Shown one piece after another: positions 7,831 through 49,666 of a stretch of 64,000 bases of DNA. The notes under the pieces were generated by a model that was not told where the DNA came from, did no database searches, and saw only the letters and a list, made by a program, of their open reading frames with translations. Position 1 is the first letter of the stretch, and every line of letters begins with the position of its first letter. Position numbers and translations under genes: made by a program. The stretch lies in contig CM039464.1 of NCBI GenBank assembly GCA_022414725.1, forward strand, positions 15,772,368-15,836,367, read 5' to 3'. The DNA comes from Microglena sp. YARC (taxonomy: Eukaryota; Chlorophyta; Chlorophyceae; Chlamydomonadales; Chlamydomonadaceae).

Positions 7831-7862
7831 ACTGGGCTCGTCACTACTACCACTGCTTTTCA

Positions 7863-18530: not shown

Positions 18531-18595
18531 TGAGCTATGTCCTAACCTATGTTGATGATTTTATCTGTGCTTTTAGTGAGCTGGATAGGTATGTT

Positions 18596-21370: not shown

Positions 21371-21374
21371 CCAA

Positions 21375-24300: not shown

Positions 24301-24905
24301 CAAACGGGCTGCCCCCCTCAACTTCACGCCTCGTAATGAGGCCTTCTACTGTATGTATTCTTGTATCTATCTATCATTCAACATTGGCTCTTGGCCACAG
24401 TGCAAGCAAACGGGCGGCCCCCCTCAACTTCACGCCTCGCGATAAGGCATTCTACTGTATGTATTCATGTATCTATCCAGCATGCAGCATTGGCTCTTGG
24501 CCACAGTGCAAGCAAACGGGCGGCCCCCCTCAACTTCACGCCTCGTGATAAGGCTACCAATGTATGTATTCATGTATCTATCTATCATTCAACATTGGCT
24601 CTTGGCCACAGTGCAAGCAAACGGGCGGCCCCCCTCAACTTCACGCCTCGTGATAAGGCTACCAATGTATGAATTCATGTATCTATCTATCATTCAACAT
24701 TGGCTCTTGGCCACAGTGCAATCAAACGGGCTACCTCCCTCAACTTCACGCCTCGTAATAAGGTGCACTACTGTATGTATTCATGTATCTATCTATCATG
24801 CAGCATACATTGGCTCTTGGCCACAGTGCAAGCAAACGGGCTGCCCATCAACTTCACGCCTCGTGATAAGGCGCACTACTGTATTTCTGCATGTATCTAT
24901 CTAGT
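21375..24905 (+). repeat. about 107 bp satellite with higher-order repeats
   Basis: About 33 units of 106-109 bp contain CACAGTGCAAGCAAACGGGC, CCCCCTCAACTTCACGCCTCG, TAAGGC and TGTATGTATTCATGTATCTA. Units differ at fixed places (CATACATTGGCGG versus CATTCAACATTGGCTCTT; CCACATAAAGC versus CCACAGTGCAAGC). A block of 6-7 units starting near 22753 recurs near 23395 and 24147 in the same order of variants. The long open frames here are by-products of the repeat. Confidence 0.95.
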
Positions 24906-25435
24906 CTGCAGCAGCATATGCTGGGTGGATGGGAAGCTCAGCAGCAAGGGCAGGAGGTCACTCATGCAGTAACAAGCAAGCAACCCTGAAAGGAATGCTA
25001 ACCGCCCCTTGCAAGTGACCGGTGTCGGATTGGTGAACTACAGGCACACGGATGCTATATCGGCATCTAGATCTAGATACCGATATAGCATCCGTGAGCC
25101 TGTAGTTCACCATTCTGACAACCGGCTGGTTGAGCTATCTATAGGTCCCCCTTGGTGAAGGCCATACACCATGCAAGCGACCAGCTGGGTGAGCTATCTA
25201 TGAGTCCCCCTTGGTAAAGGCCATACACCATGCAAGCGACCGGCTGGGTAAGCTATCTATAGGTCCCCCTTGGTAAAGGCCATACACCATGCAAGCGACC
25301 GGCTGGGTAAGCTATCTTTATGTCCCCCTTGGTAAAGGCCATACTCCATACATAAAGCCAGTAAGGTGAGCTATCTTTAAGTCCCCCTTGGCTCTTTCGA
25401 GCGGGGGGCACATTTGGAGTCCGGTAGGGCACCAG
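24906..25435 (+). repeat. palindrome and 60 bp minisatellite
   Basis: 25032-25111 is a near-perfect 80 bp palindrome (GGTGAACTACAGGC..GCCTGTAGTTCACC). It is followed by four to five units of about 60 bp containing CCGGCTGGGTAAGCTATCTA and GGTCCCCCTTGGTAAAGGCC. No gene. Confidence 0.9.
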
Positions 25436-27889: not shown

Positions 27890-29806
27890 TCATGTGATGG
27901 GCTGATTGGAAGCGGCAACCAACCCACCCAACCTAGGAAATACAATAAGGGTGCAAACTAGCGCAACAATAATAGAAGCAGCCAACACCCACAGAGGCAT
28001 CTGCGGCCACACAGCCTTACACAAGAAAACGGAGAAGTGGAGGGGATATCCGATGCTGGCAGTGGTAGAGGAACGTGCCTTCTTTATGATGACAGGGGGT
28101 CGTTTATCTGAGTTTGGCTTGGCTTGGGGAGGCTTGGCTTGGCTTGGGGATTCGATCAGGGAGCTTGGCTTGGATTGAGAAGGCTTGGTTTGGCTGGGCT
28201 GGGCTTGGCTGGGGGATTTGATCAGGGAGCCTGCCATACGGGAGGGCCCCTGAGTCATGGGCTGAATGCTGGTCCCAGACCTTCCTCGCTGATTCATTTC
28301 ATCGCCAACAGCAGCCTGCATCTTGCCCATGCGCCTGCTGAAATGCTCAGGCGACTTCACACACCCCGGGTAATTACATTGCCAAGCTTGTAAGATGAAT
28401 GGATCTCCCTTGCGCAATAGGAACTTAGCCATTTTCCCCTCGTTGACCAGCACGGCAACGTGCAATGGCGTCATGCCAACTTTGTCTAGGATGCCCCATT
28501 GGCAAGGGACGCTGTATACGTCTGACCAGCGCATGACCTCGTCCACCATGGAATAGCTGCCACTCAACACAGCCAAGTGCGTGATGGTACATCCTTTGTT
28601 GTTCTGAGTCCCTCTAATGTAGTCTTGGAAGGAGGAGATGTCATCCGAGCCTTCATTGTGCTCCTTCCCACGGACACATGCACAGAGGTCAGAGGAGGTG
28701 AGGAGCAGGTCTACGACGTGTTTGGCTGAGTTCTTGCAGCCCTTGCCAACCAGAAGCATCAAAAGATGGTTCCCTGCCCTCCACATGTCTGCCAATTGTT
28801 GCGAAATCGCATTTCCCACAGTTTCTGACGCCTCCTCTTGCCTGCCATCTGCAAGCCGATGTGCATTTGTCGGTGCCAATTGTTGCAAAATCGAAATCGG
28901 TGCCGATTGTTGCAAATCCGAAATCGATGCCAATTGTTGTGAAATTGAAATCGGTGCATGTCCCACGGTGCTGTCTGACTCCTCCTCTTGCCTGCCATCT
29001 GCGAGCCGATGGGCAGTGTGTATGGCCTGTAACCACAAACCCAATGCGTACACGACTTCATCACCCCAAGGCTGATCAATGCCAGGAATTTCCAGGCTAT
29101 GGGGCATGTCCTCGGGGCGAAGGAGGCGCATAGAGCACAGCTCTGGTACCAGCTCTGCCAATGCCTCGTCAAACAGCACCATATTTCTGTCACCAATAAT
29201 GACATGGTCGTCAAGGTCCTGCACGATGACATTCAGTACCCAGCAGGAAGACTGGGACACCAGGGTGTCGGTAGGGAGCTTCATTTGTAGCGTGCTACGG
29301 CCATGCTCCTCCACCCCAGACTGGATAACATCGCACACCAAGATGTGATTCCCAAGGCTTGCATTGATTGCTACGCCACTGGGAAGTTCAGAGCACCGCA
29401 GGGGTAAGCACAAGATACGGACACCCTCCTCAGACTTGGGGAGAGGCGCAGCCAAGGGGAAGGCGGCCAGCAAGCTGGATTGGTGCTCACTCGGGATGTT
29501 CACCTTCCTGGACATGTCCATGTGTGTTGGCAGCCCAAGCCAGGCCAGCCACGATCTGCTGCTGACGTCTTCAAGCATCTGCACCACTGAATACTCCGAA
29601 GCAGCATCTGACTGCGAAGCATTGTCCGACTGGGAAGCGGCATCTGACTGGGAGCGAACACTGACACCAACCAGCAGGCTACCCCGCTGGAACGTAATAT
29701 CAGTGACAACGTATCCAAGGTGTGCAGCCTCAAACCCTTGCTTCAGCTTCAGCTTGGCATTAGGAGCCAAGTCATCAGGATCAGCGTCTGGGATTCGCAA
29801 GGACAC
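27890..29806 (-). CDS. SPL/CRR1-like C-terminal module with ankyrin-like repeats (last exon)
   Basis: 638 codons to the stop. Early residues VSLRIPDADPDDL...ITFQRGSLLVGVSV follow the pattern (V-f-KlF-kDPs ... IRPGCvvLsvyv) that opens the conserved half of plant SPL1/12/14-type proteins. A middle block with CWVLNV..HVIIGD corresponds to their CFIEVEN..FPviia block. Residues about 340-460 hold two ankyrin-like repeats (TITHLAVLSGSYSMVDEVM; VGMTPLHVAVLVNEGKMAKFLL) followed by QAWQ, in the order seen in SPL proteins. A Ser/Gln/Lys/Pro repeat and a membrane segment (WVLAASIIVALVCTLIVFP) follow. The final VAASNQPIT comes from the GGAAGCGGCAACCAAC repeat. Resemblance is at pattern level only. Confidence 0.6.
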   Translation of the reverse strand: MSLRIPDADPDDLAPNAKLKLKQGFEAAHLGYVVTDITFQRGSLLVGVSVRSQSDAASQSDNASQSDAASEYSVVQMLEDVSSRSWLAWLGLPTHMDMSRKVNIPSEHQSSLLAAFPLAAPLPKSEEGVRILCLPLRCSELPSGVAINASLGNHILVCDVIQSGVEEHGRSTLQMKLPTDTLVSQSSCWVLNVIVQDLDDHVIIGDRNMVLFDEALAELVPELCSMRLLRPEDMPHSLEIPGIDQPWGDEVVYALGLWLQAIHTAHRLADGRQEEESDSTVGHAPISISQQLASISDLQQSAPISILQQLAPTNAHRLADGRQEEASETVGNAISQQLADMWRAGNHLLMLLVGKGCKNSAKHVVDLLLTSSDLCACVRGKEHNEGSDDISSFQDYIRGTQNNKGCTITHLAVLSGSYSMVDEVMRWSDVYSVPCQWGILDKVGMTPLHVAVLVNEGKMAKFLLRKGDPFILQAWQCNYPGCVKSPEHFSRRMGKMQAAVGDEMNQRGRSGTSIQPMTQGPSRMAGSLIKSPSQAQPSQTKPSQSKPSSLIESPSQAKPPQAKPNSDKRPPVIIKKARSSTTASIGYPLHFSVFLCKAVWPQMPLWVLAASIIVALVCTLIVFPRLGGLVAASNQPIT

Positions 29807-31933
29807 GGTGTGAGTGTGAGCCTTGGCAGCATTGCGGCTGCTAGATAGGCCCCGCTGTTGACCAGGTCGATCAAGTGATAGATCTCTTGGTCACTGAAAT
29901 CACCGCCTGGGTCCCCAACAGGGGCAGCTGCGTCAGCCTCATGGGACTTGGTGGTGGTGGTGGTGGTGGTGGTGGTGGTGCAGAGCATAGCTTTGCTCAC
30001 AGACTGCTCCTCCTTGGCACTTCCAGCAAAGCCGAAGTAGCGCTTGCTGAAATGAAGTAAACCACAAGCGGGCCGCTCTACAGGACCAGGTAGCTCAGTC
30101 TCAGTGGAATTGGTGGTCTTGGTAGTTTCGATGGTCCCCGGGGTTTCGGTGGTTTCGGTAGTCTCGGTGGAATCAGTGGCGAGGCAAAACTGGTCTTTGT
30201 GGTCTTTGAATTGAGAGCGGGCTTGTAGCTCCCCGTGTAGTCGCGCAAGGGTGGGGATTACAATAGCCACCACCGGCAGCCAGGCGGGGATATCTCCCGG
30301 GCTGCGTTGTGCCACGCAAGGGGCTAGGACCAACCACATCAGGATTTGCATCAGTCCAAATTTGGCACGCACAGTAAACAAGTAGTTGACGGCAGCGATC
30401 ATGAAACTGAAGCCACACCTGGTGGGGTTGTGGTGGTGGTGGTGGTGGAATGATGGTGGTGGTGGTGGTGGTGGGATGGTGGCGGTGGTGGGATGGTGGT
30501 GGGATGGTGTGGTGGTGGATGGTGTGGTGGTGGTGGTGGTGGATGGTGGTGGTGGTGGGATGGTGGTGGGGATGGTGGTGTGGTTGGTGGTGGGATGGTG
30601 GTTGGTGGGATGGTGGTGGGATGGTGGTGGGTGGTGGGGATGGTGGGGATGGTGGTGGTGGTGGGATGGTGGTGTGGTGGTGGTGGTGGTGTGTGGATGG
30701 TGGTGGTGGGATGTGTGTGGGATGGTGGTGGTGGTGGTGGGATGGTGGTGGTGATGGTGGTGGTGGTGGGATGGTGGTGGGATGGTGGTGGTGGTGGTGG
30801 TGGGGATGGTGGTGGTGGTGGGGATGGTGGTGGTGGTGGTGGGATGGTGTGGTGATGGTGGTGGTGGTGGTGTGATGGTGGTGGTATGGTGGTGGTGGTG
30901 GTGGTGGTGGGATGGTGGTGGTGGTGGGGGATGGTGGTGGGATGGTGTGGTGGTGGTGGTGGTGGTGGTGGTGGTGGTGGTGGTGGTGGTGGTGGTGGTG
31001 GTGGTGGATGGTGTGGTGGATGGTGGTGGATGGTGGTGGTGGTGGTGGGTGGTGGATGGTGGTATGGTGGTGGTGGTGGTGGGATGGTGTGTGGTGGGAT
31101 GGTGGTGGGATGGTGGTGGGGTGGTGATGGTGGTGGTGATGGTGGTGGGATGGTGGTGGGATGGTGGTGGGATGGTGGTGGTGGTGGTGGGATGGGTGGT
31201 GGTGGTGGGATGGTGGTGGGATGGTGGTGGGATGGTGGTGGATGGTGGGATGGTGGTGGTGGTGGTGGTGGTGGTGGTGGGATGGTGGTGGTGGTGATGG
31301 TGGTGTGGGGTGGTGGTGATGTTGGAGCTATTTCCCCCCCGGAAAATTCAACCTAGATTCTAGATCCAATCCAACCTATATCCCTGGGTCCAATCCAACC
31401 TAGTTCCAATCCAACCTAGATCCCTAGGTCCAATCCAACTTATATTCCACATTCAATCCAACCTAGATCCCAAGATCCAATCCAACCTATATCCTATATC
31501 CAATCCAACCTACACACCTAGATCATATTTCCTTCCCAAGTGCATCCTAGATCCAATCCAACCCAGATCATATATCCAATCCTATCCTAGATCCTAGGTC
31601 CTAGATCCGATCCAATCTAGATCCTAGATCCAATGTAACCTACATCCAATCCAAACCACATCATATATACGATCCAATCTAGATCCAATCCAACCTAGAT
31701 CTAATACAACCTATGTCCTAGATCTGATCCAACCTAGATCCTAGATCCCTAGATCCAATCCAACCTAGATCCCTAGTACTCACCAGGAGCCCAGGGTGCC
31801 GACAGGGTCATTCATCCTCTGCACCACGGATGGCAAGGATGCCGGGTCGCACATGATCCACATTGTGATGATGGAGATCCTGCACACGGCAAGGGTGAAG
31901 GGTGAAGGGACGAGGGTCAAGGGTAAGTGGTAA

Positions 31934-31965
<32 letters not shown>

Positions 31966-34900
31966 GCATCTTCATCGAGTGCTGGATTAATTAATTTTAA
32001 CATGCACACGGCAAGGGTCAAGGGTGAAGGGACGAGGGTCATTGGTCAAGGGTCAAGGGTTAGGGGGTCAAGGGTGAGGGGGACATCAATCTAGGGCAAA
32101 GGGGGGCAGGGGGGGGAGGGGAGGGGGGGGGGCATCGTCATCTTAGTGGCGCCAACATTGGAGAGCAGCATAAGCAACTTCACAACACCATCGAACCAGA
32201 GCTTTTTCCGCTACCAGTAGCGATCGCTACCTGGGACTCTATTTTGGCCAAACCTTCCGCTACCATGAGACTCAAATCTCACCCCACCTACAGGCCGCCT
32301 ACCGTGCAAGTCCAGGACCGTCCCCACCTACCGCCCACCTACCGTGCAAGTCCAGGACTGTGCCCACATACCGCCCACCTACCGTGCAAGTCCAGGACTG
32401 TGCCCACATACCGCCCACCTACTGTGCAAGTCCAGAACCTTCCCCACCTACCATGCAAGTCCAGGACTGTGCCCACGTACCGCCCACCTACCGTGCAAGT
32501 CCAGGACTGTGCCCACATACCGCCCACCTACCGTGCAAGTCCAGGACTGTGCCCACATACCGCCCACCTACCGTGCAAGTCCAGGACCTTCCCCACCTAC
32601 CATGCAAGTCCAGGACTGTGCCCACATACCGCCCACCTACTGTGCAAGTTCAGGGCTGTGCCCACATACCGCCCACCTACCGTGCAAGTCCAGGACTGTT
32701 CCCACATACCGCCCACCTACCGTGCAAGTCCAGGAACCTTCCCACCTACCGTGCAAGTCCAGGACCTTCCCCACCTACCGCCCACCTACCGTGCAAGTCC
32801 AGGACTGTACCCACATACCGCCCACCTACCGTGCAAGTCCAGGACCTTCCCCACCTACCATGCAAGTCCAGGACTGTGCCCACGTACCGCCCACCTACCG
32901 TGCAAGTCCAGGACTGTGCCCACATACCGCCCACCTACCGTGCAAGTCCAGGACTGTGCCCACATACCGCCCACCTACCGTGCAAGTCCAGGACCTTCCC
33001 CACCTACCATGCAAGTCCAGGACTGTGCCCACATACCGCCCACCTACCGTGCAAGTCCAGGACTGTGCCCACATACCGCCCACCTACCGTGCAAGTCCGC
33101 CCCACCTACCGTGCAAGTCCAGGACCTTCCCCACCTACCATGCAAGTCCAGGACTGTGCCCACATACCGCCCACCTACCGTGCAAGTCCAGGACTGTGCC
33201 CACATACCGCCCACCTACCGTGCAAGTCCAGGACCTTCCCCACCTACCATGCAAGTCCAGGACTGTGCCCACCTAGCGCCCACCTACCGTGCAAGTCCAG
33301 GACTGTGCCCACATACCGCCCACCTACCGTGCAAGTCCAGGACCTTCCCCACCTACCATGCAAGTCCAGGACTGTGCCCACATACCGCCCACCTACCGTG
33401 CAAGTCCAGGACCGTGCCCACCTACCGCCCACCTACCGCGCAAGTCCAGGACTGTGCCCACATACCGCCCACCTACCGTGCAAGTCCAGGACTGTGCCCA
33501 CATACCGCCCACCTACTGTGCAAGTCAAGGACTGTGCCCACATACCGCCCACCTACCGTGCAAGTCCAGGACCTTCCCCACCTACCATGCAAGTCCAGGA
33601 CTGTGCCCACATACCGCCCAAATACCGTGCAAGTCCATGACTGTGCCCACATACCGCCCACCTACCGTGCAAGTCCAGGACTGTGCCCACATACCGCCCA
33701 CCTACCGTGCAAGTCCAGGACTGTGCCCACCTACCGTGCAAGTCCAGGACTGTGCCCACCTACCGCCCACCTACCTACCGTGCCAGTCCAGGACTGTGCC
33801 ACATACCGCCCACCTACCGTGCAAGTCAGGACTTCCCCCACCTACCAATGCAAGTCCAGGACTGTGCCCACCTACCGCCCACCTACCGTGCAAGTCCAGG
33901 ACTGTGCCCACATACCGCCCACCTACCATGCAAGTCCAGGACCTGTGCCCACATACCGGGCCCACCTACCGTGCAAGTCCAGGACCCCACATACCGCCAC
34001 CTACCGTGCAAGTCCAGGACTTCCCCACCTACCAATGCAAGTCCAGGACTGTGCCCAATACCGCCCACCTACCGTGCAAGTCCAGGACTGTGCCCACATA
34101 CCGCCCACCTACCGTGCAAGTCCAGGACCTTCCCCACCTACCGCCCACCTACCGTGCAAGTCCAGGAATGTGCCCACATACCGCCCACCTACCGTGCAAG
34201 TCCAGGACTGTGCCCACATACCGCCCACCTACTGTGCAAGTCCAGGACTGTGCCCACATACCAGCCCACCACCGTGCAAGTCCAGGACCTTCCCCACCTA
34301 CCATGCAAGTCCAGGACTGTGCCCACATACCGACCCAATACCGTGCAAGTCCAGGACTGTGCCCACATAGCCGCCACCTACCTTGCAAGTCCAGGACTGT
34401 GCCGCCACTACCGTGCAAGTCCAGGACTGTGCCCACATACATACGCCACCTACCATGCAATTCCAGGACTGTGCCCACATACGCCCACCTACCGTGCAAG
34501 TCCAGGACTGTGCCCACCTACCATGCAAGTCAGGACTGTACCACATACCGCCCACTACCGTGCAAGTCCAGGACCTTCCCCACCTACCATGCAAGTCCAG
34601 GACTGTGCCCACATACCGCCCACCTACCGTGCAAGTCCAGGACTGTGCCCACATAACCGCCCACCTACGTGCAAGTCCAGGACTTCCGCACCTAACCATG
34701 CAAGTCCAGGACGCAGTCCAGGACTAGTGCCCACATATTGCCCCACCTACCGTGCAAGTCGGTGGACCTTCCCACCTACGCCGCACTACCGTGCAGTCCA
34801 GGACTGTGCCCACATACCGCCCACCTACCGTGCAAGTCCAGGACTGTGCCCACATACCGCCCACCTACTGTGCAAGTCCAGGACTGTGCCCACATACCGC

Positions 34901-37900
34901 CCAAATACCGTGCAAGTCCAGGACTGTGCCCACATACCGCCCACCTAAACGTGCAAGTCCAGGACTGTGCCCACATACCGCCCACCTAATGCAGTCCAGG
35001 ACTGTGCCCACATACCGCCCACCTACCGTGCAAGTCCAGAACCTTCCCCACCTACCATGCAAGTCCAGGACTGTGCCCACATACCGCCCACCTACCGTGC
35101 AAGTCCAGGACCTTCCCCACCTAACATGCAAGTCCAGGACTGTGCCCACATACCGCCCACCTACCGTGCAAGTCCAGGACTGTGCCACATACCGCCCACA
35201 CCTACCGTGCAAGTCCAGGACCTTCCCACCTACCATGCATGTCCAGGACTGTGCCCACATACCGCCCACCTACCGTGCAAGTCCAGGACTGTGCCCAATA
35301 CCGCCCACCTACTGTGGCAAGTCCAGGACTTCCCCACCTACCGCCCACATAACCGTGCAAGTCCAGGATTGTGCCCACATACCGCCCACCTACCGTGCAA
35401 GTCCAGGACTGTTGCCCACATACCCGCCACACACTACGTGCAAGTCCAGGACTGTGGCCCACATAACGCCACCGACCGTGCAAAGTCCAGGACCTTCCCA
35501 ATACACCGTGCAAGTCCACTGTGCCCACATACCGCCACTACCGTGCAAGTCCAGGACTGTGCCCACGATATACCTCTCCATGTGCAAGTCCAGGACTGTG
35601 CCACATACCCGCCCACAATGCAAGTCGGACTGTGCCCATACCGTGCAAGTCCAGGACCTTCCCCACCTACCATGCAAGTCCGGACTGTGCCAATACAACG
35701 CCCACCTACCGTGCAAGTCCAGGACTTCCGCACTTCCCACCTACATGCGAGTCCAGGACTATACCCACATAACGCCACCTACCGTGCAAGTCCAGGACTG
35801 TGCCCACATACCGCCACCTAGTGCAAGTCAGGACCCGCACCTACCATGCAAGTCTAGGACTGTGCCCACATATTTGCCCACCTACCGTGCAAGTCCAGGA
35901 CTGTGCCACATACCGCCCACCTACCGTGCAAGTCCAGGACCTTCCCCTAACGCCCACTACCGTGCAAGTCCAGGACTGTGCCCACATACCGCCCACCTAC
36001 GTGCAAGTCCAGGACTGTGCACATACCGCCCACCTACTGTGCAAGTCCAGGACTGTGCCCACATACCGCCAATACCGTGCAAGTCCAGGACTGTGCCCAC
36101 ATACCGCCCACCTACCGTGCAAGTCCAGGACTGTGCCCACATAACCGCCCACTCTACCATGCAAGTCCAGGACTGTGCCACATACCGCTCACCACCGTGC
36201 AAGTCCAGAACCTTCCCCCCTACCATGCAAGTCCAGGACTGTGCCGCACATACCGCCACTACCGTGCAAGTCCAGGACTTCCCACCTACCATGCAAGTCC
36301 AGGACTGTGCCCACATACCGCCACTACCGGTGCAAGTCCAGGACTGTGCCCACATACCGCCACCTACCGTGCAAGTCCAGGACCTTCCCCTACCATGCAA
36401 GTCTGTGCCAATACCGCCCACTACCGTGCAAGTCCAGGACTGTGCCCACATAGACCGGCCCACCTACCGTGCAAGTCCAGGACTGTGCCACATACCGCCC
36501 ACCTACCGTGCAAGTCCAGGACCTTCCCCACCTACCATGCAAATCCAGGACTGTGCCCACATACCGCCCACTACCGTGCAAGTCCAGGACTGTGCCCACA
36601 TACCGCCCACGGCTACCGTGCAAGACCAGGACCTTCCCACCTACCATGCAAGTCCAGGACTGTGCCCACCTACCGCCACCTACGTGCAAGTCCAGGGACC
36701 TTCCCCACCTACCATGCAAGTCCAGGACTGTGCCCACTACCGCCCACCTACCGTGCAAGTCCAGGACTTCCCACCTACCGCCCACCTACCGTGCAAGACC
36801 AGGACCTTCCCCACCTACCGCCCACTCCGTGCAAGTCCAGGGCCTTCCCACCTACGGCCCACCTACCGTGCAAGTCCAGGACCTTCCCACTACGGCCCAC
36901 CTACTGTGCAAGTCCAGGACCTTCCCCACTTACGCCCACCTACCGTGCAAGTCCACGGTTCCCCACCTACGCCTCCACCTACCGTGCAGTCTGGCCCTTC
37001 AGGCCGCCTATACAAATGGCTACCAGGAGACCAACCTTGAAAAACACCAAATCCCTGATAGCTACCAGAAAGAAACCTTTCTGAATCGGAAAAAAGCCAT
37101 GCATCTATCTCCACCCGCACAAATTGTACATCACCATTCAACTCCACCCGCACAAACTGTACATCACCATAATAATACAAAAACGTCTGTGGGGGTGTGG
37201 TGTTAAGAAGAACCTCCCGTACGCCGCAGCTTGGGAAAATCACAATGGCAGACATAGTAAGTGTGACTGTCCAGGCGGGAGGGACTCCTTCATGCAACGT
37301 GTGGCAAGAATGCTGGTACAGGAGGCAATAGATTCTCTGTGCAGCTTAGAGATGAGTTTGTCTACGTGTTCGTGACTGATCACTAAGATGGAGAGCAGGG
37401 TACTTCCATTGGCCAAATTTGCCAGCGCTTTAGCGCACTTGAAAAAAAACTGCTCTGTGTAGTGCAAAAAACACAAAAATTGCTTGCTGCGCCCACAGGG
37501 GGTTGCAAAAAACTGCGCGGAACGCGCAGTCGGGCTAAAAAGGCTTGGAAGTACCCTGGTGGAGAAATTGGTAAGAGTTGTGATGGGTATGATACCAGTG
37601 GGTAGGGGGAAGCTAGCCCGGGGTTAGCCAGCCCGGGGGTTAGGATTTAGGTTTAAGGGTTTAGGGGGTTTAGGTTTTAGGGTTTGGGGGGGTTAGGGTT
37701 ACGGGGGTAACCGTTTACCCCCGGGCTGGCAAATCCCAGGCTAGCTTCCCCCCTGGAGTTGGATGGTGATTAGATACCAGTGGTATCTAATCACCATCCA
37801 ACTCCACCCGCACAAACTACACATCACCCCCCACCACCCTCCTGCTCCCCACACCCACACCTACTTGAACATGGCAAATATGAACGCTGAAGGCTCCACC

Positions 37901-40900
37901 CAACACACTAACATGCACTACACTACACCACTCCACACCTACCTGAACACGGCAAAGATGACCGCCGAGGGCTCCACCCAAAACACAAACATACACTACA
38001 CTGCACTACAGCACGCCACACCTACCTGAACATGGCAAAGATAAACGCTGAGGGCTCCACCCACTGCCACCTGTGACACACACTGCCACACCCACCCACT
38101 GCCACCTGTCACACCCACTGCCACCTGTCACACCAACTGCCACACCCACCCACTGCCACCTGTGACACCCACTGCCACACCCACCCACTGCCACTTGTCA
38201 CACACACTGCCACCTGCTCCACCCCTGCCACCTGTCACACACACTGCCACCTGTCACACACACTGCCACCTGTCACACACACTGCCACCTGTCACACACA
38301 CTGCCACCTGTCAACACACTGCCACCTGTCACACACACTGCCACCTGTCACACACACTGCCACCTGTCACACACACTGCCACCCGTCACACACACTGCCA
38401 CCTGTCACACACACTGCCAAACCCACCCACTGCCACCTGTCACACACACTGCCAAACCCACCCACTGCCACCTGTCACACACACTGCCACCTGTCACACA
38501 CACTGCCAAACCCACCCACTGCCACTGTCACACACACTGCACCTGTCACACACACTGCCAAACCCACCCACTGCCACCTGTCACAACCACTGACACACCC
38601 CCCCACTGCCACACCCCCCACTACCACCTTTCACACCCACTGACACACACCCCCACTGCCACACACCCCACTGCACCTGTCACACCCACTGCCAAACCCC
38701 CACTGCCAAACCCCCCACTGCCACACCCCCCCCACTGCCACCTGTCACACCCACTGCCAAACCCACCCACTGCCCCACCCCCCACTGCCACCTGTCACAA
38801 CCCACTGCAAACCCACCCACTGCCACACCCCCCCACTGCCACCTGTCACACACACTGCCAACCCCCCCCTGCCACACACCCCCACTGCCACCTGTCACAC
38901 ACACTGCCAAACCCACCCACTGCCAAACCCACCCACTGCCACCTGTCACACACACTGACACACCCACCCACTGACACACCCACCCACTGCCACCTGTCAC
39001 ACACACTGCCAAACCCACCCACTGCCACCTGCCACACACAGTCACCCAAACAGAGAAGATCATGGACATATACATGTAAAGGGACCAGCATATCATATGA
39101 TGTTGACCAAAGGCGAGTATGATACCATATGATATCATATACATTGCATCATATGATATTGCATACAAATGGTAACTTTGGCCTAGTCAGACTGCCGGCA
39201 TCATATGATATTGCATACAAATGGTAACTTTAGCCTAGTCAGACTGCCGGCATCATATGATATCATACGATATCATATGATGCCATGTTGCTGTTCCCTA
39301 CATATGTAAGCCCCTGTACCTCCCTGCCACACCTCCCCCTCCCCTCCAACTCTCCCCCTCCCCTCGAAACCTCCCTGACACACCTCACCCTCACCACCAA
39401 CCTCCCTGACACACCTCACCCTCACCTCCAACACTCCCCCTCACCTCCCAACTTCACCTCCAAACCTCCGTGGACACACCTCACCCTCCCCACCAACCTC
39501 CCTGCACAACCCCCCTCACCTCCAACCTCCCCCTCCCCTCCCAACCTCCGTGACACACCTAACCCTCCCAACCAACCTCCCTGCCACACCTCACCCTCCC
39601 CTCCAACCCTCCCCACCAACCCTCCCCCTCCCCTCTAAACCTCCCTGACACACCCCAACCTCCCCACCAACCTCCCAGCCACACCTCACCCTCCCCCAAC
39701 CCTCCAACTCCCCTCCAAACCTCCCCTCCCTCCAAACCTCCCTGCCACACCTCACCCTCACCTCCAACCCTCCCCTCCAAACCTCCCGTGACACACCTCA
39801 CCCTCCCTCACCAACCTCCCTGCCACACATCACCCTCCCCACCAACCCTCCCCCTTCCCTCTAAACCTCCGCGACACACCTCACCCTCCCACCAACCTCC
39901 CTGCCACACATCACCTCCCCACCACCCTCCCCCTCCCCTCTAAACCTCCGTGACACACCTCACCCTCCCCACCAACCTCCCTGCCACACATCACCGTCCC
40001 ACCAACCCTCCCCCTCCCCTCTAAACCTCCGTGACACACCTCACCTCCCCACCACCTCCCTGCCACACATCACCCTCCCCACCAACCCTCCCCTCCCCTC
40101 TTAAACCTCCGTGCCACACCTCACCCTCCCCTCCAACCCTCCCCCACCAACCCTCCCCCTCCCCTCTAAACCTCCCTGACACACCCCAACCTCCCACCAA
40201 CCTCCCAGCCACACCTCCCCTCCCCCCAACCCTCCTCCAACCCCCTCCCCTCCAAACCTCCCTGCCACACCTCCACCCTCACCTCCAACCCTCCCCTCCA
40301 AACCTCCGTGACACACCTCACCCTCCCACCAACCTCCCTGCCACACATCACCCTCCCCACCAACCCTCCCCCTTCCCTCTAAACCTCCGCGACAACACCT
40401 CACCCTCCCCACCAACCTCCCTGCACACATCACCCTCCCCACCAACCCTCCCCCTCCCCTCTAAACCTCCGTGACACACCTCACCCTCCCCACCAACCTC
40501 CCTGCCACACATCACCCTCCCCACCAACCCTCCCCCTCCCCTCTAAACCTCCGTGACACACCTCACCCTCCCCACCAACCTCCCTGCCACACATCACCCT
40601 CCCCACCAACCCCTCCCCCTCCCCTCTAAAACCTCCGTGACACACCTCACCCTCCCCACCAACCTCCCTGCCACACATCACCCTCCCCACCAACCCTCCC
40701 CCTCCCCTCTAAACCACCGTGACACACCTCACCCTCCCCACCAACCTCCCTGACACACATCACCCTCCCCACCAACTCTCCCCCTCCCCTCTAAACCTCC
40801 GTGACACACCTCACCCTCCCCACCAACCTCCCTGCCACACATCACCCTCCCCACCAACTCTCCCCTCCCTCTAAACCTCCGTGACACACCTCACCCTCCC

Positions 40901-41971
40901 CACCAACCCTCCCCCTCCCCTCTAAACCTCCGTGACACACCTCACCCTCCCCACCAACCTCCCTGCCACACATCACCCTCCCCACCAACCCTCCCCCTCC
41001 CCTCTAAACCTCCGTGACACACCTCACCCTCCCCACCAACCTCCTGCCACACCTCACCCTCACCTCCAACCCTCCCCTCCCAACCTCCGTGACACACCCC
41101 ACCCTCCCCACCAACCTCCCTGCCACACCTCACCCTCACCTCCAACCCTCCCCTCCCCTCCCAACCTTCCGTGACACACCCCACCCTCCCCACCAACCTC
41201 CCTGCCACACCTCACCCTCACCTCCAACCATCCCCCTCCCTCCCAACCTCCCCTCCAAACCTCTGTGACACACCTCACCCTCCCCCACCAACCTCCCTGA
41301 CACACCTCACCCTCCCCACCAACCTCCCTGCCACACCTCACCCTCCCCTCCAAACCTCCGTGACACACCTCACCCTCCCCACCAACCTCCCTGCCACACA
41401 TCACCCTCACCTCCAACCCTCCCCTCCCAACCTCCGTGACACACCCCACCCTCCCCACCAACCTCCCTGACACACCTCACCCTCACTCCAACCTCCCCCT
41501 CCCCTCCCAACCTCCCCTCCAAACCTCTGTGACACACCTCACCCTCCCACCAACCTCCCTGACACACCTCACCCTCCCCACCAACCTCCCTGCCACACCT
41601 CACCCTCCCCTCCAAACCTCCGTGACACACCTCACCCTCCCCACCAACCTCCCTAACACACCTCGGCCCCCCCTCCAAACCTCCCTGACACGCACACCTC
41701 ACCCTCCCCACCAATCTTCCTGCCACACCTCACCCTCACCTCACCCCGTGTCACAAACATACCTGAACGCGGCAAAGATGAACGCCGAGGGCTCCACCCA
41801 CTGCAATTTTCCATTGAGAAGCAGTAACAGGAAGAAGAAAGAAGGCACAGGACAGCCTGGCTCCAAAAGGATGCTTCCCAGCGGATTGCTGCGTGGTGGT
41901 GGTGGTGGTGGCTGGCTGGCTGGCTGGCTGGTGGATTGATGCGTGGTGGCAGAGGTGGTAGAGGTGGTGGT

Positions 41972-42006
<35 letters not shown>

Positions 42007-42398
42007 CTGGCCTCTAACAGGATGCTTCCCAGCGGATTGCTGCGTGGTAATGGTGGTGGTGGGTGAGTGGGTGGCTGGCTGGCTGGCTGGTGGATTGATG
42101 CGTGGTGGGAAGGTGGCAGAGGTGGTGGTGGTGGTGGTTGTGGTGGTGGTGGTGGTGGTGGTGGTGGTGGGGGGGGGGGGGGTCTGGCTCTAACAGGATG
42201 CTTCCAGCGGGATTGCTGCGTGGTGGTGGTGGTGGTGGTGGGTGGCTGGCTGGCTGGCTGGCTGGCTGGTGGATTGATGCGTGGTGGCAGAGGTGGAAGA
42301 GGTGGTGGTGGTGGTGGTGGTGGTGGTGGTGGTGGGGGGGGGGGGTCTGGCTCTAACAGGATGCTTCCCAGCGGATTGCTGCATGGTAGTGGTGGTGG

Positions 42399-42433
<35 letters not shown>

Positions 42434-43120
42434 TGGTTTGAATGCGTGGTGGTTGAGGTGGTGGTGGTGGTGGTGGTGGTGGGGGGGGGGGGTGGGGGGG
42501 GGTCTGGCTCTAACAGGATGCTTCCCAGCGGATTGCTTGCGTGGTGGTGGTGGTGGTGGGTGGGTGGCTGGGTGGTGGATTGATGCGTGGTGGTAGAGGT
42601 GGTGGTGGTGGGTGGGAGGGGGGTGGCTGGCTGGCTGGTGGATTGCTGCGTGGTGGTGGTGGGTGGCTGGCTGGCTGGCTGGGTGGTGGATTGATGCGTG
42701 GTGGTGGTGGTGGTGGGTGGGTGGCTGGGTGGTGGATTGATGCGTGGTGGTAGAGGTGGTGGTGGTGGGTGGGAGGGGGGGTGGCTGGCTGGCTGGTGGA
42801 TTGCTGTGTGGTAGTGGTGGGTGGGTGGCTGGCTGGCTGGCTGGGTGGTGGATTGATGCGTGGTGATGGTGGTGGTGGGTGGGTGGCTGGGTGGTGGATT
42901 GATGCGTGGTGGTAGAGGTGGTGGTGGTGGGTGGGGAGGGGGGTGCTGGCTGGGTGGTGGATGCTGCGTGGTGGTGGTGGGTGGGTGGCTTGGCTGGCTG
43001 GCTGGGTGGTGGATTGATGCGTGGTGATGGTGGTGGTGGGTGGGTGGCTGGGTGGTGGATTGATGCGTGGTGGTAGAGGTGGTGGTGGTGGTGGTGGTGG
43101 TGGTGGTGGTGGTGTGGTGT

Positions 43121-43167
<47 letters not shown>

Positions 43168-45279
43168 GGCTCTAACAGGATGCTTCCCAGCGGATTGCTG
43201 CGTGGTGGTGGAGGTGGTGGGTGGGTGGGTGGCTGGGTGGCGGATTGATGCGTGGTGGTAGAGGTGGTGGTGGTGGGTGGGAGGGAGGGTGGCTGGCTGG
43301 GTGGTGGATTGCTGCCTGGTGGTGGTGGTGGTGGTGGTGGGTGGGTGGCTGGCTGGCTGGCTGGCTGGGTGGTGGATTGATGCGTGGTGGTAGAGGTGGT
43401 GGGTGGGTGGATGGGTGGGTGGGTGGGTGGGTGGGGGGGGGGGGGCTGGCCCTAAAAGGATGCTTCCCAGCGGATTGCTGCCGTGGTAGTGGAGGTGGTG
43501 CGTGTGTGTGCAAGTGGTGGTGGACGTGGTGTGGGTGTATGCAAGTGGTGGTGGTGGTGGTGCCTAAGTGCTGACCAGCTTGCCACTGGATTGCTGCGTG
43601 GTGGTGGAGTTGGTGTGTTTGCGTGCGTGCGGTGCTGGTGTGTATGAATGGGTGGGGTGTTAGGGGTGGGTGGGGTGGGTGGGTGGGTGGGTGGGTAGGT
43701 GTGGGGGAGATTTATGCCAGGTTGACATTGCCATACTAATACCACTTAACAGTTAAGAATGCTTCCCACCGTATTGCTGCACAAGTGGTAGGGGGGAAGC
43801 TGGACAGCACTTGGGTTTGGGCGCTCGAAGTTTAGGTGATTTAGGGTTCAGGTGGTTTGCGTTTGAATTTGTTTAGGTTTAAGTGGTTTTGGTGGTTTAT
43901 ATAAGGAGTAATTCCGGTCATGGTAAAGTGTTGACGAGCAAAGTGCCGGCTCATCATCATCATCATCATCATCACCATCATTATCATCAGCTAAGTGCCA
44001 ACTCATCATCCCCATCACCATCATCACCATCAGCTAAGGGCCGACTCATCATCATCACCATCATAATCATTATCATCACCAAAGTGCCGACTCATCATCA
44101 TCATCATCATCACCATCACCATCATCATCAGCAGCAGCAGCTAAGTGCCGACTCATCATCATCATCACCTGCATAATCATTATCATCAGCTAAGTGCCAA
44201 CTCATCATCATCATCATCACCATCACCATCATAATCACCAGCTAAGGGCCGACTCATCATCATCATCACCATCATAATCATCAGCCAAGAGCCGTCTCAT
44301 CATCATCATCATCACCATCAGCAGCAGCAGCAGCAGCTAAGTGCCGACGATCTAAGTGCTGAATAGCTAAGTGCAGACCAGCTAAGTGCTGAACAGCCAA
44401 GTGCTGGTCAGCATCACACCACCTTACCACTTTACACCAGTTCTGGCACCACCACACCACCACCACACCACACACCTCATTGTGCACTTCAGGGTTCAGA
44501 AAGTGAGATTCTACCTGCTAATATTTAATTACGCCCCATTGGTTCCCCATACTTGATCCGGAGCATGGAGAAGGCATACAAAAGCATTTCCAAGGCGGCA
44601 AGATCAGCTCCCCCCCCCCCCCCCCCCCGCCCCCACCGCGCACACACACACTCACACACACACCGCCCCCTACATGAGCAAGTCCTCACTCGTCAGTATC
44701 AAATGAACACTGTGTGCCTAGGCCCCCCAAAACAAAATGATCAACCTACCTATGAAAGTCCTCACTAGTCAGCATCAACTGGACGCTGCGTGCCTAAGCT
44801 CCCACAAGCAAAATGGTCAACCGATGGCAAGGCCCCCACAAAACAAAATTGTCAACCTACCTGAGAAAGTCCTCACTCGTCAGTATCAACTGGACGCTGA
44901 GTGCCTAGGCCCCCACAAGCAAAATGATCAACCGATGGCAAGGCCCCCACAAAACAAAATTGTCAACCTACCTGAGAAAGTCCTCACTCGTCAGCATCAA
45001 CTGGACGCTGCGTGCCTAGGCCCCCACAAGCAAAATGATCAACCGATGGCAAGGCCCCCACAAAACAAAATTGTCAACCTACCTGAGAAAGTCCTCACTC
45101 GTCAGTATCAAATGGAAACTGCGTGCCAAGGCTATCACAAAGAACAAAATCAAGCCACGTAGCCGCAGCTGGATCTGCAGCCTCACAAACGTCTTCTCGT
45201 CTGCGCCATCAGCAAAGCCGAAGAAGCACTCGCGCACGCCCGCTATCAGGCTGGTCTTCTTTGCCACCTTGCCACTCAT
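27890..45279 (-). CDS. Large multi-exon gene: multi-pass membrane protein with SPL-like C-terminal module
   Basis: This gene model is assembled from exons supported by splice sites and reading phase. The exons at 44553-44607, 41763-41888, 31784-31879 and from 30418 down all join at phase 2 with GT..AG introns. A possible first exon (45080-45279) ends in phase 2, while the next exon needs phase 1, so that join is unresolved. The protein has several hydrophobic segments, a Thr/Glu-rich stretch, then a region resembling the C-terminal half of SBP-box SPL/CRR1 proteins. One frame break lies at about 29810-29900. Introns total about 14 kb and consist of satellites. No SBP DNA-binding domain was seen. 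Function is unknown. Confidence 0.6.
29749..30418 (-). CDS. Exon: membrane segments and acidic Thr-rich linker
   Basis: The acceptor CCCCACCAG at 30419-30420 joins the preceding exon in phase (TG|G gives Trp). It encodes CGFSFMIAAVNYLFTV, LMQILMWLVLAPCVAQ and WLPVVAIVIPTLARL, at least two to three hydrophobic segments. Then comes a soluble part with TETTETTETPGTIETT, an FGFAGSAKEEQ block and a (Thr)10 run coded by ACC repeats (29951-29980). The frame closes at 29749, but the SPL-like module continues in another frame from about 29806-29900, so one base is missing or a tiny intron was missed. Confidence 0.62.
30419..31783 (-). other. Intron: (GGT)n array and CCAATCCAACCTAGATC repeats
   Basis: The donor GTGAGT is at 31783 and the acceptor CAG at 30419. 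About 30420-31330 is (GGT)n interrupted by GGGAT; 31350-31780 is degenerate ATCCAATCCAACCTAGATCC. On the gene strand the first array is (ACC)n and forms a long pyrimidine-rich tract up to the acceptor. Confidence 0.7.
31784..31879 (-). CDS. Exon (96 bp) of the membrane/SPL-like gene
   Basis: It is bounded by ...CCCTTGCCGTGTGCAG and GTGAGTACT, both strong splice signals. Translation ISIITMWIMC then DPASLPSVVQRMNDPVGTLG is open only in the frame set by the upstream exon (TTC AG|G ATC) and feeds the downstream exon (TCC TG|G TGT). The first ten residues extend the hydrophobic stretch begun in the previous exon. Confidence 0.75.
31880..32280. repeat. AAGGGT repeats and poly-G tracts in intron
   Basis: GCACACGGCAAGGGT plus GAAGGGACGAGGGTCA occurs at 31881 (at the exon acceptor) and again at about 32004. 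Runs of about 28 G (31936-31963) and shorter G runs (about 32101-32135) are present. G-run lengths are likely unreliable. Confidence 0.75.
32285..36995 (+). repeat. 40 bp satellite, about 4.7 kb, inside intron
   Basis: Units of 40 bp (CAAGTCCAGGACTGTGCCCA, CATACCGCCCACCTACCGTG) alternate with a 29 bp form (CAAGTCCAGGACCTTCCCCA, CCTACCATG). The unit has no plus-strand stop in any frame, which makes false frames up to 762 codons. From about 33.8 kb single-base deletions become frequent. On the minus strand each unit holds GGGCACAG and CACG-GTAGGT, that is an acceptor-like and a donor-like site 15 bases apart. Confidence 0.95.
37186..37226 (-). mobile_element. SINE-like element, tail-only copy e
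   Basis: Reverse-complemented, it reads TACGGGAGGTTCTTCTTAACA-CCACACCCCCAC, matching the tail of copies b-d. The head is missing. Confidence 0.5.
37396..37558 (-). mobile_element. hAT-like MITE, copy 2 (163 bp)
   Basis: The ends are CAGGGTACTTCCA and TGGAAGTACCCTG, perfect 13 bp terminal inverted repeats. Flanks ATGGAGAG and GTGGAGAA match at 6 of 8 bases and look like a decayed 8 bp target-site duplication. The interior (GCGCCCACAGGGGGTTG, AACTGCGCG) is related in reverse to the MITE at 62525. Confidence 0.8.
37605..37753. repeat. 35 bp inverted repeat around TTTAGGG-like tract
   Basis: The arms GGGGGAAGCTAGCC..GCCAGCCCGGGGG (37605-37640) and CCCCCGGGCTGGC..GGCTAGCTTCCCCC (37718-37753) pair with few mismatches. 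The loop is degenerate telomere-like GGTTTAGGGTTT sequence. Confidence 0.88.
37755..37805. repeat. perfect 51 bp palindrome
   Basis: GGAGTTGGATGGTGATTAGA runs to TACCA, one central G, then the exact reverse complement to 37805. The right arm leads into ACCCGCACAAACTACACATCACC, which repeats about 37115-37165. Confidence 0.92.
37860..38060 (-). repeat. three copies of the 3' edge of the 41763-41888 exon
   Basis: On the minus strand, GGAGCC(C/T)TC(A/G)GCG, TTTGCC and GTTCA(G/A)-GTAGGTG occur at about 38020-38060, 37935-37980 and 37860-37905. They match the last 38 bases and the donor of the exon at 41763-41888. They could be alternative exon ends or dead duplicates. Confidence 0.75.
38060..39045 (+). 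repeat. about 20 bp satellite, intronic
   Basis: (CCACCTGTCACACACACTG)n with CAAACCCACCCACTG variants. No coding value. Confidence 0.93.
39100..39290. repeat. CATCATATGATAT repeats
   Basis: Two tandem units of about 70 bp (GGCATCATATGATATTGCATA, CAAATGGTAACTTT, CAGACTGCC) end in ATCATACGATATCATATGAT. They are related to 21045-21110 and 26060. Confidence 0.85.
39310..41735 (+). repeat. 82 bp satellite, intronic
   Basis: Pyrimidine-rich units of 82 bp (CCTCCGTGACACACCTCACC, CCACCAACCTCCCTGCCACA, CCCTCCCCCTCCCCTCTAAA) with shorter variants at both ends. Near-identical units in the middle (40380-41010) point to recent expansion. Confidence 0.93.
41763..41888 (-). CDS. Exon (126 bp) of the membrane/SPL-like gene
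   Basis: The acceptor CCACGCAG (41889-41890) and donor CAG-GTATGT (from 41762) enclose an open phase-2 to phase-2 exon. It encodes NPLGSILLEPGCPVPS, then FFFLLLLLNGKLQ, then WVEPSAFIFAAFR, and joins the next exon as FAAFR-ISIITMW. Its first 32 bases are repeated many times upstream (42.0-43.8 kb) and its last 38 bases three times downstream (37.86-38.06 kb), in satellites of the flanking introns. Confidence 0.7.
41889..43720 (+). repeat. G-rich compound satellite carrying copies of the exon start
   Basis: Units of about 150-200 bp with (GGT)n, (GGCT)n, poly-G and GGATTGATGCGTGGTGG. Eight or more units contain CTCTAACAGGATGCTTCCCA plus GCGGATTGCTGCG, which on the minus strand is an acceptor (CGCAG) followed by CAATCCGCTGGGAAGCATCC, the start of the 41763-41888 exon. 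Confidence 0.9.
43790..43930 (+). repeat. short TTTAGG-like degenerate tract
   Basis: GGTAGGGGGGAAGCTGG is followed by GTTTAGGTGATTTAGGGTTC and related units, resembling the left arm and loop at 37601-37700. Confidence 0.5.
43950..44340 (+). repeat. (CAT)n microsatellite with AGCTAAGTGCCGACT spacers
   Basis: Runs of (CAT)n/(CAC)n are separated by AGCTAAG(T/G)GCC(G/A)ACTCATC about every 60-75 bp. Confidence 0.92.
44553..44607 (-). CDS. Exon (55 bp) of the membrane/SPL-like gene
   Basis: The acceptor AG at 44608-44609 follows a run of about 18 G on the gene strand. The donor AA-GTATGG begins at 44552. The open frame reads DLAALEMLLYAFSMLRI, an amphipathic or hydrophobic helix, ending in phase 2, which fits the 41763-41888 exon. 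It needs phase 1 input, which the exon at 45080-45279 does not give. Confidence 0.5.
44675..45130 (-). repeat. 111 bp tandem array: 36 bp exon-like units with 75 bp GT-AG introns
   Basis: Each unit on the minus strand has GGCACGCAG, then CGTCCAGTTGATGCTGACGA-GTGAGGACTTTCTCAG (36 bases, open as VQLMLTSEDFL), then GTAGGTTGAC. The unit is a multiple of three and keeps phase 2, so any number of copies could be spliced in without a frameshift. The copy nearest 45080 is joined to the first exon; the one at about 44690 has a weak donor. Confidence 0.8.
45080..45279 (-). CDS. Candidate first exon of the membrane/SPL-like gene
   Basis: Begins ATG at 45279 (MSGKVAKKTSLIAG), continues ECFFGFADGADEKTFVRLQI and a hydrophobic LRGLILFFVIALA, and ends LTSEDFLR at the donor CTCAG-GTAGGT. 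FGFADGADEKTF recalls FGFAGSAKEEQ further down the same gene. The ATG is the first in frame after CACCCTTCACA. It could also be an internal exon. Confidence 0.5.
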
Positions 45280-47129: not shown

Positions 47130-48465
47130 TCAAGTTTTCCATGGGGATTGCTGCTTGACTCTCGACCTTTTCCACCAGCAAGAGAATCTAGATTGTTGTT
47201 TACTGCCATGAGTTTTCCACGAGGACTACGATTGCAGGTCTTCAGGTCGTTGTTTGCAAACGAGACTCTCGACCTTGAGAATCTAGATTGTTGTTTACTG
47301 CCATGAGTTTTCCACGAGCTACGATGCAGGTCTCCAGGTCGTTGTTTTGCAAAACGGTATCATATCCTCAACACTGGTTACATGGGGATGGCTGCTTGAC
47401 TCTCGACCTTTTCCACCAGCAAGAGAATCTAGATTGTTGTTTACTGCCATGAGTTTTCCACGAGACTACGATGCAGGTCTCCAGGTCGTTGTTTGCAAAC
47501 GGTATCATATCCTCAACACTGGTTACATGGGGATGGCTTGACTCTCGACCTTTTCCACCAGCAAGAGAATCTAGATTGTTGTTTACTGCCATGAGTTTTC
47601 CACGAGACTACGATGCAGGTCTCCAGGTCGTTGTTTGCAAACGGTATCATATCCTCAACACTGGTTACATGGGGATGGCTGCTTGACTCCCGACCTTTTC
47701 CACCAGCAAGAGAATCTAGATTGTTGTTTACTGCCATGAGTTTTCCACGAGACTACGATGCAGGTCTCCAGGTCGTTGTTTGCAAACGGTATCATATCCT
47801 CAACACTGGTTACATGGGGATGGCTGCTTGACTCCCGACCTTTTCCACCAGCAAGAGAATCTAGATTGTTGTTTACTGCCATGAGTTTTCCACGAGACTA
47901 CGATGCAGGTCTCCAGGTCGTTGTTTGCAAACGGTATCATATCCTCAACACTGGTTACATGGGGATGGCTGCTTGACTCCCGACCTTTTCCACCAGCAAG
48001 AGAATCTAGATTGTTGTTTACTGCCATGAGTTTTCCACGAGACTACGATGCAGGTCTCCAGGTCGTTGTTTGCAAACGGTATCATATCCTCAACACAGGT
48101 TACATGGGGATGGCTGCTTGACTCCCGACCTTTTCCACCAGCAAGAGAATCTAGATTGTTGTTTACTGCCATGAGTTTTCCACGAGACTACGATGCAGGT
48201 CTCCAGGTCGTTGTTTGCAAACGGTATCATATCCTCAACACTGGTTACATGGGGATGGCTGCTTGACTCCCGACCTTTTCCACCAGCAAGAGAATCTAGA
48301 TTGTTGTTTACTGCCATGAGTTTTCACGAGACTACGATGCAGGTCTCCAGGTCGTTGTTTGCAAGGTATCATATCCTCAACACTGGTTACATGGGGATGG
48401 CTGCTTGACTCCCGACCTTTTCCACCAGCAAGAGAATCTAGATTGTTGTTTACATCCACGAGTTT
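47130..48465 (+). repeat. 145 bp satellite
   Basis: About nine units with GAATCTAGATTGTTGTTTAC, CATGAGTTTTCCACGAGACT and CAACACTGGTTACATGGGGA. Units from 47613 to 48266 are spaced exactly 145 bp and are almost identical; the outer units carry deletions. One short frame per unit on both strands is repeat-derived. Confidence 0.96.
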
Positions 48466-48479
48466 TTTAGGGTCGTTAT

Positions 48480-49410
48480 TTAGCTGCCTAGAAGTTGCTG
48501 CTGGTAGCAGGAAAGAAAAGCAGTGGCAACTATCATGGTTGTTCTGGGAGCTGCCTGGAAGCTGCTGCTAGTAGCAAGAAAGGAAATCACTGGCCACTAC
48601 CGGGTTGTTAAGGGCGCTGCGTAGAACCTGCTGATGGAAGAAGGAAGAAAAAAGCAGTGCCACTATCATGTTGTTCTGGGAGCTGCCTGGAAGCTGCTGC
48701 TAGTAGCAAGAAAGAAAATCACTGGCCACTTACCAGGTTGTTAAGGGAGCTGCCTAGAAGCTGCAGCTGGTAGCAGAAATAAAACCTGTGGCCGCTACCA
48801 ATGTTGTTCAGGAGCTGCCTAGAAGCTGTAGCTGGTAGCAGGAAATAAAACCTGTGGCCGCTACCAGGTTTGACCAGGGAGCTGCCTAGAAGCTGCAGCT
48901 GGTAGCAGGAAATAAAAGCCGTGGCCGCTACCAGGTTTGACCAGGCAGCTGCCTAGAAGCTGCAGCTGGTAGCAGGAAATAAAAGCAGTGGACGCTACAA
49001 GGTTTGACTAGGGAGCTTCCTAGAAGCTGCAGCTGGTAGCAGGAAATAAAAGCAGTGGCCGCTACCAGGTTTAACCAGGGAGCTGCCTAGAAGCTGCAGC
49101 TGGTAGCAGGAAATAAAAGCAGTGGCCGCTACCAGGTTTGACCAGGGAGCTGCCTATAAGCTGCAGCTGGTAGCAGGAGATAAAAGCAGTGGCTGCTACC
49201 AGTGTTGACCAGGGAGCTGCCTAGAAGCTGCAGCTGGTAGCAGGAAATAAAAGCTGTGGCCGCTACCAGTGTTGTTCAGGGAGCTGCCTGGAAGCTGCTG
49301 CAGGTAGCAGGAAATAAAAGCAGTGGCCGCTACCTGGTTTCTTCAGGCAGCTGCCTAGAAGCTGCTGCTGGTAGCAGGAAATAAAACTAGTGGCCACTAC
49401 CCAGGATGTT
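48480..49410 (+). repeat. 67 bp satellite
   Basis: About 13-14 units with GGGAGCTGCCTAGAAGCTGC, AGCTGGTAGCAGGAAATAAA and GCCGCTACCAGG. Single relatives of the unit occur at about 15177, 45940-45970 (inverted), 46068, 54707 and 63413, so the satellite unit matches a dispersed repeat. Confidence 0.95.
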
Positions 49411-49666
49411 CAGGGGTAGCAGACTGTGTGGTAGGTGCACTTTTGATATTATACATCATGTACACCCAATCACGCAATAGCGGCAAGTCCTAAGCGCATC
49501 AGCTATCGCTTGTGTTCAATGGAACACTCAGACTTTTTTCTCAAAATGCCATGTCCCGAGCGTGGGGGATTGTTACCCTTGCCCCAGCAGCCCTTGCACC
49601 ATGTACAATTGTGGCCCTTGACAGAGACATCTACTCCCCCATGAGAAGAGCAAGGCCCACACTTGT

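Follow-up and report, generated by a model that had tools for sequence, protein, structure and literature searches.

Local duplications straddling exon-intron junctions as one source of intron length in the green alga Microglena sp. YARC

The locus and its gene

The window, i.e., the whole stretch of 64,000 nucleotides that was analyzed (C3:15772368-15836367), contains a minus-strand gene of four exons (Table 1), whose junctions are all AG/GT and all in phase 2. The boundary of exon 1 was set by its GT donor, by conservation in paralogues, and by the aligned read-through in intronless paralogues. These relatives upheld the gene model of an earlier sequence-only reading, apart from the end of exon 1, which had been placed at 45080 and thus 3 nt too far. 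They also agree with its claim that the exons form one gene, as the paralogues C2, C1116, and C4 each consist of one open frame aligned over all three junctions. A shorter exon 2 (41800-41763, 38 nt) with a good pyrimidine tract upstream was rejected because it breaks the frame and the extra residues are present in intronless relatives.

Table 1. Coordinates of the exons, repeat arrays, and satellites of the gene (positions in the window)
Feature	Position	Strand	Remarks
Exon 1	45279-45083	-	ATG 45279; donor GT from 45082
Exon 2	41888-41763	-	126 nt
Exon 3	31879-31784	-	96 nt
Exon 4	30418-29749	-	frame closes at 29749
Continuation of the family coding region in another frame, ankyrin repeat match	27890-29890	-	
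Array at the start of intron 1, four copies of exon 1 end and donor	45082-44669	-	50-58 exonic nt
Exon 2 acceptor array, second half of intron 1	43780-42007	-	weaker matches include CGCATCAATCC units
Satellite in intron 2, G-rich on the gene strand	39318-41742	-	from ~20 nt past the exon 2 donor
Three copies of exon 2 end and donor	38067-37856	-	~3.7 kb into intron 2
Intron 2 satellite	32282-36988	-	periods 40, 109, and 149 bp
Copied flank of the exon 3 acceptor, without exonic sequence	32067-32003	-	64 intronic, 0 exonic nt
Intron 3: GGATCTAGGTTGGATT-type satellite, then (CCA)n to the acceptor	31783-30419	-	

In the paralogue C1 the frame is still open over 1058 aa, unlike the exon 4 frame of the window gene, and comparison of the two places a frame change near 29.80 kb (29740-29900) in the window copy, which may on this account be a pseudogene. 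Pfam matches comprised ankyrin repeats in the C-terminal frame of the window, weak ankyrin repeats in C2, and a mucin match below threshold. A protein search with the intronless copy C2 returned one relative, EukProt P0001, with 40% over 21% of the query, and the read-through of the window gene found no relative among 7995 candidates scored. P0001 carries a 20-residue block four times in tandem; these blocks are perhaps a repeat array annotated as protein.

Tandem-repeat coverage is 86% in the introns of the gene, 10% in the exons, and 23% in the remaining window. Outside the gene, tandem arrays of 106 bp x33, 145 bp x8, and 67 bp x14 occupy 21374-24913, 47277-48466, and 48482-49415, respectively, and reading frames of Copia-type retrotransposons were recognized by eye from translations at 196-3050, 7821-13532, and 18530-19521.

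Copies of exon edges within the introns

Three clusters of copies described in the sequence-only reading were recovered. The end of exon 1 recurs with its donor beside the exon in four copies (45029-44902, 44918-44791, 44807-44720, and 44723-44669) with start spacings of 111, 111, and 84 bp. The first 32 bases of exon 2 and the acceptor, for which eight or more copies had been claimed, occur eight times with 16 or more exonic nt (32 in six cases) and additionally in 14 weaker matches with 2-8 exonic nt. The last 38 bases of exon 2 and the donor were found three times, as claimed (38067-38017, 37980-37934, and 37902-37856), with 38-42 exonic nt. Local duplication across splice sites on the same strand is hence real at this gene and contributes to intron length.

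Two further claims did not hold. The weaker case proposed for the exon 3 acceptor at 32004 contains no exonic nucleotide and is not an exon copy, and the statement that such copies occur at every intron was too strong, since exon-bearing copies lie at three of the six junctions, only the intronic flank recurs at the other three, and no exon copies were found in intron 3. Intron 2 holds only three exon-bearing copies in 9.9 kb; its G-rich satellite yielded none in a search for exon copies of at least 12 nt, and no exon-edge copy was found in its satellite at 32282-36988. The stretch 37000-37830 of this intron, outside the satellites, has an inverted TGGTGATTAGATACCA / TGGTATCTAATCACCA pair and CCCTAAA-like repeats and is possibly a mobile element. 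Past the exon 1 donor the frame meets an immediate stop (AG|gtag, phase 2), so that a downstream donor copy, if used, would truncate the protein.

Paralogues and history of the arrays

Exon 1 matched eight places elsewhere in the genome, and the regions around all eight were compared. The same three introns occur at the same positions in C5, C6a, and C1, C6b has the second intron only, and all three are absent from C2, C1116, C4, and C1b, the last of which is covered by a single aligned segment (residues 62-212) that crosses all three junctions, the first by only about four residues. The intron-poor copies lie at C6:3005.9 kb (C6b), C2:2374.5 kb, C1116:30.3 kb, C4:13811.6 kb, and C1:108113.5 kb. 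Lacking introns 1 and 3 or all three, they could serve as a small natural set with which to date the gain or loss of introns. The family tree separates the four intronless copies from the five intron-bearing ones, with the window copy, C5, and C6a grouped; as it is unrooted, intron gain and loss are indistinguishable.

The missing introns could be read as the mark of mobile introns (introner-like elements) or of intron birth by tandem duplication, with the repeats as traces of insertion. We regard this as very improbable, since loss is as possible as gain on the unrooted tree, the copies are not common to the kinesin and CCT families treated below, and the intron 1 start (gtaggttgacaatttt) is by eye unlike the exon 2 start (CAATCCGCTGGG), whereas birth by tandem duplication needs the two to be alike.

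Exons 1-3 of four gene copies yielded 16 copies of three-prime edges, all in the downstream intron, and 14 of five-prime edges, all in the upstream intron; two matches were classed as interior (downstream) and none lay on the opposite strand. When these 12 exons were dinucleotide-shuffled 300 times each, no match was found at the same threshold. Copy C1 showed no edge copies of exons 1-3 at the exon-only threshold, and the junction-level search recovered short copies there, 12 with 16 exonic nt and two with 36.

The window copy and C6a, which lie on different chromosomes, have the intron-to-exon fusion TGTGGGGGCCT[A/T]GGCAC in common in their exon 1 arrays, so the founding duplication is probably older than their split. 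For the exon 2 end array the unduplicated state is preserved: the start of intron 2 is single in C1 and C6b, and the final unit of both the window copy and C5 continues into that sequence. The ten bases GTGGGTGGAG occur by eye in exon 2 of C1 and again ~54 nt into its intron, and the window gene likewise has GCCTTG in its first exon and first intron. The GTGGGTGGAG repeat fits a possible microhomology-mediated or slippage event, a reading that concerns two arrays; the breakpoints are illegible at most loci.

C5 and C6a contain stops or frame shifts, and together with the window copy they look degenerate from their frames, so selection on them may be relaxed. At the start of intron 2 in C6a (L012, C6:4164.4 kb downwards), the array units alternate between two forms of the exon 2 end, and the exon 2 ends of the gene copies vary in the same manner as the array units. 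This may hint that array units replace the exon edge itself.

Recurrence in unrelated genes

A kinesin search of the genome gave 128 matches, of which 113 were kept and 15 spanning more than 190 positions were left out. Among the 113, 15 neighbor pairs overlap in the model, and eight loci have partial copies sharing an exon edge. The opposite edge, which had not been used for selection, was duplicated as well at all eight, and one locus (L024) carries nine upstream copies. The 15 over-long matches (e.g., C505:20564, C1:73349473, and C1:766488) were mostly weak; long open frames enclose many of them, and some resemble one repeated element.

Exons chosen by rank were used for prevalence. For kinesin these were ranks 1-13 without rank 4 (C2:15919754), which belongs to the selected set. 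Exon-edge copies were present in 9 of 12 kinesin exons and 8 of 20 CCT/Cpn60 exons, together 17/32, and in none of the three light-harvesting exons (LHC matches of ranks 2-4), which results in 17/35 over the three families. These exons are partly non-independent, as some come from the same gene (L032/L042, L046/L058, L048/L057, L050/L053/L060, and L052/L061), overlapping stretches cover L050, L053, and L060, and the 20 CCT loci include no fewer than two intronless frames (L044 and L049). The 118 LHC matches contained one clear and one possible edge-sharing neighbor pair. One LHC exon was assigned to the chlorophyll a/b-binding proteins by comparison with solved structures. For an intronless CCT-beta, an identical protein exists in EukProt, and the best named algal relatives are from Chlamydomonas eustigma (87%) and C. 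chlamydogama (86%). On C3, a CCT-type gene copy with a stop and a frame break has edge copies at four of six exon pieces, with up to six at one edge.

Of the 72 copies at the rank-chosen loci, all 38 five-prime-edge copies lay upstream and all 34 three-prime-edge copies downstream, every one on the same strand, and none elsewhere. An assembly artefact, in which repeats were misjoined or falsely expanded, is hardly credible given the expected side and strand in 72/72 copies. One stretch (L063) does contain a run of N; the copies, however, are mostly 75-97% identical to the exon (one 46-nt match reached 100%) and are therefore not the same sequence placed twice, and a breakpoint is common to paralogues on different chromosomes.

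Comparison of the exon-edge copies, rather than whole introns, of the 12 kinesin exons against the 20 CCT loci and vice versa gave one 23-nt simple repeat only. A cross-locus control inside one family was rejected, as 16 of 32 exons matched and paralogues and neighboring exons confound it; only the cross-family part was used. At the rank-chosen loci, junction-region copies cover on average 33% of the flank between 0.2 and 1 kb on 13 acceptor sides and 22% on 12 donor sides, and thus account for part of the intron length, not all.

Layout of the copies and their decoy splice sites

Repeat units that carry exon sequence and the splice signal over the boundary were found at 46 of 64 edges, a set that includes the eight loci selected for copies and four copies of the window gene, and they amount to 152 spanning copies. 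Both 5' and 3' exon boundaries are affected, with up to 12 spanning copies at one edge and start-to-start spacings mostly of 57-210 bp, a few being longer. The nearest copy lies head-to-tail with the exon edge at 13 of the 30 edges with a junction-crossing self-match (40 tested). At the other 17 it does not, so loss, insertion, or a non-tandem step must occur too.

AG or GT is intact in 138 of the 152 decoys. Relative to their own true donor, 48 of 67 decoy donors agree with the consensus equally well or better, and over all donor decoys the mean is 0.37 of 9 consensus positions fewer. The pyrimidine content of 85 acceptor decoys is the same as that of their true sites. From copy to copy, retention per base was 125/130 for AG and 94/100 for GT, compared with 88-94% at neighboring positions. 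As these counts derive from loci with assignable splice sites, most of which bear copies, they do not express prevalence. There is no sign of decoy purging.

Undegraded decoys with AG/GT retained at least as well as neighboring positions might suggest that the copies are in use as alternative donors, acceptors, or optional exons, selected for isoforms or for gene shut-off via premature stops. We consider such use decidedly unlikely. The same retention is expected under neutrality when the reference site is constrained, the copies consist of a partial exon with a single splice site, and read-through of the exon 1 donor stops at once.

Duplication at junctions and elsewhere

In 32 loci, only 9 of 176 points in exon interiors had a copy in the flank, and selection probably shields these interiors from duplication. 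At 13 of the 32 rank-chosen loci, 16 of 25 junctions were duplicated, which is not clearly different from the 26 of 49 points 150-300 nt into the intron; at 450-600 nt the count was 2 of 16. The four family members that carry all three introns have straddling copies, within 700 nt, at 10 of 24 junctions vs. 291 of 370 intron points, although the interior figure is inflated by simple repeats. Like the decoy counts, the junction and intron-point counts of the 13 loci come mostly from copy-bearing loci and do not express prevalence.

The sequence-only reading had cast exon edges as the special seeds of the satellites. As active seeds, junctions would provoke duplication (e.g., through an R-loop or a G-rich donor/C-rich acceptor structure) and the bulk would grow outwards. 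Repeats of the junction flank do adjoin every one of the six junctions in the window gene, with exonic bases included at three, and junctions and near points are duplicated more often than points at 450-600 nt. In the 600-nt flanks of L024-L059, GC skew was negative on the acceptor side in 19 of 20 cases and positive on the donor side in only 12 of 20, and from this polarity the intron ends could pair. Against seeding, the junctions of the gene family are duplicated less often than the intron interiors, the far points number only 16, and the intergenic DNA of the window likewise holds large tandem arrays. Duplication thus appears general in introns, a seeding role of the edge is unsupported, and we hold it to be unlikely.

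Proposed explanation

The explanation that we consider probable is frequent local duplication within introns, with units that often straddle junctions and are tolerated since the site attached to the exon is still used. Introns would grow via local duplication of pieces of ~60-200 bp, which would then amplify and decay like minisatellites. Many of the founding duplications would straddle a junction, giving units that join an exon edge, with a complete splice site, to one end of the intron. The founding step may be slippage or microhomology-mediated duplication.

In exon definition, acceptor and donor are paired across the whole exon. A copy of a 5' edge brings an acceptor that lacks its donor, and a copy of a 3' edge a donor that lacks its acceptor; a complete exon would thus be formed only with the site on the exon itself. 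Junction-straddling duplications would survive because the spliceosome still pairs the acceptor and donor on the whole exon; decoys with only one site would be silent, and duplications inside exons would be removed by selection. From this arrangement we infer that the decoys are unused by the spliceosome. Points that count against local duplication as explained here include the 0/3 of the light-harvesting exons, the few edge-sharing LHC pairs vs. the eight loci of 113 kinesin matches, the 17 edges whose nearest copy is not head-to-tail, the partial coverage of the flanks, and the broken frames of the window gene, C5, and C6a.

More tentatively, and with somewhat less than even expectation, boundary-straddling duplication may be a genome-wide engine of intron growth, with about half of the kinesin- and chaperonin-type exons flanked by decoys whose match to the true site extends over tens of nucleotides in either direction. 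Site choice would then follow from position relative to the whole exon, not from sequence. If so, the genome would be a natural library for testing exon definition. The question of how true sites are distinguished from decoys of equal quality is an old one, and here near-identical decoys adjoin the true sites in conserved genes. The arrays also point to duplication over boundaries as a contributor to intron length, and they may mislead gene prediction.

Comparison with known systems

The sequence-only reading knew of no described system of this kind. The mirage minisatellites of amphioxus, however, span exon boundaries in Adh3, the globins BflGb6 and BflGb9, troponin C, and PGBD5, with units from tens of bp to ~160 bp, and these reports describe regular splicing as undisturbed (PMC3087553, PMC3902484). 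Among the literature matches listed, none reports such arrays in algae, most subscription journals being outside the coverage.

Further systems share single features with the algal arrays. Intron gain by tandem genomic duplication in the potato RdRp gene reportedly likewise involves local tandem duplication with splice signals, but there the duplication is tied to a new intron, whereas in the alga existing introns are enlarged and no intron birth is shown (PMC4974935). Introners also cause large changes in intron content; they reportedly insert copies of themselves in many genes, while the algal copies lie beside their own exon and are not shared across gene families (PMC9860276). Ordinary intronic minisatellites resemble the arrays in period, decay, and, in part, tandem layout, but in the alga coding sequence and a complete splice site form part of the unit.

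The closest likeness is to the mirages, with repeated units of similar size, in the alga only in part head-to-tail, over 5' and 3' boundaries and AG/GT in many copies. The alga is set apart by copies that often occur at both edges of one exon, with up to 12 spanning copies per edge, and by 17/35 rank-chosen exons vs. a few named genes in amphioxus. The amphioxus cases are backed by RT-PCR and haplotype data, while the algal arrays are known from the sequence of one assembly alone. The arrays are the same kind of object as the amphioxus mirages, and what is new is their lineage, a green alga near Chlamydomonas, and their prevalence.
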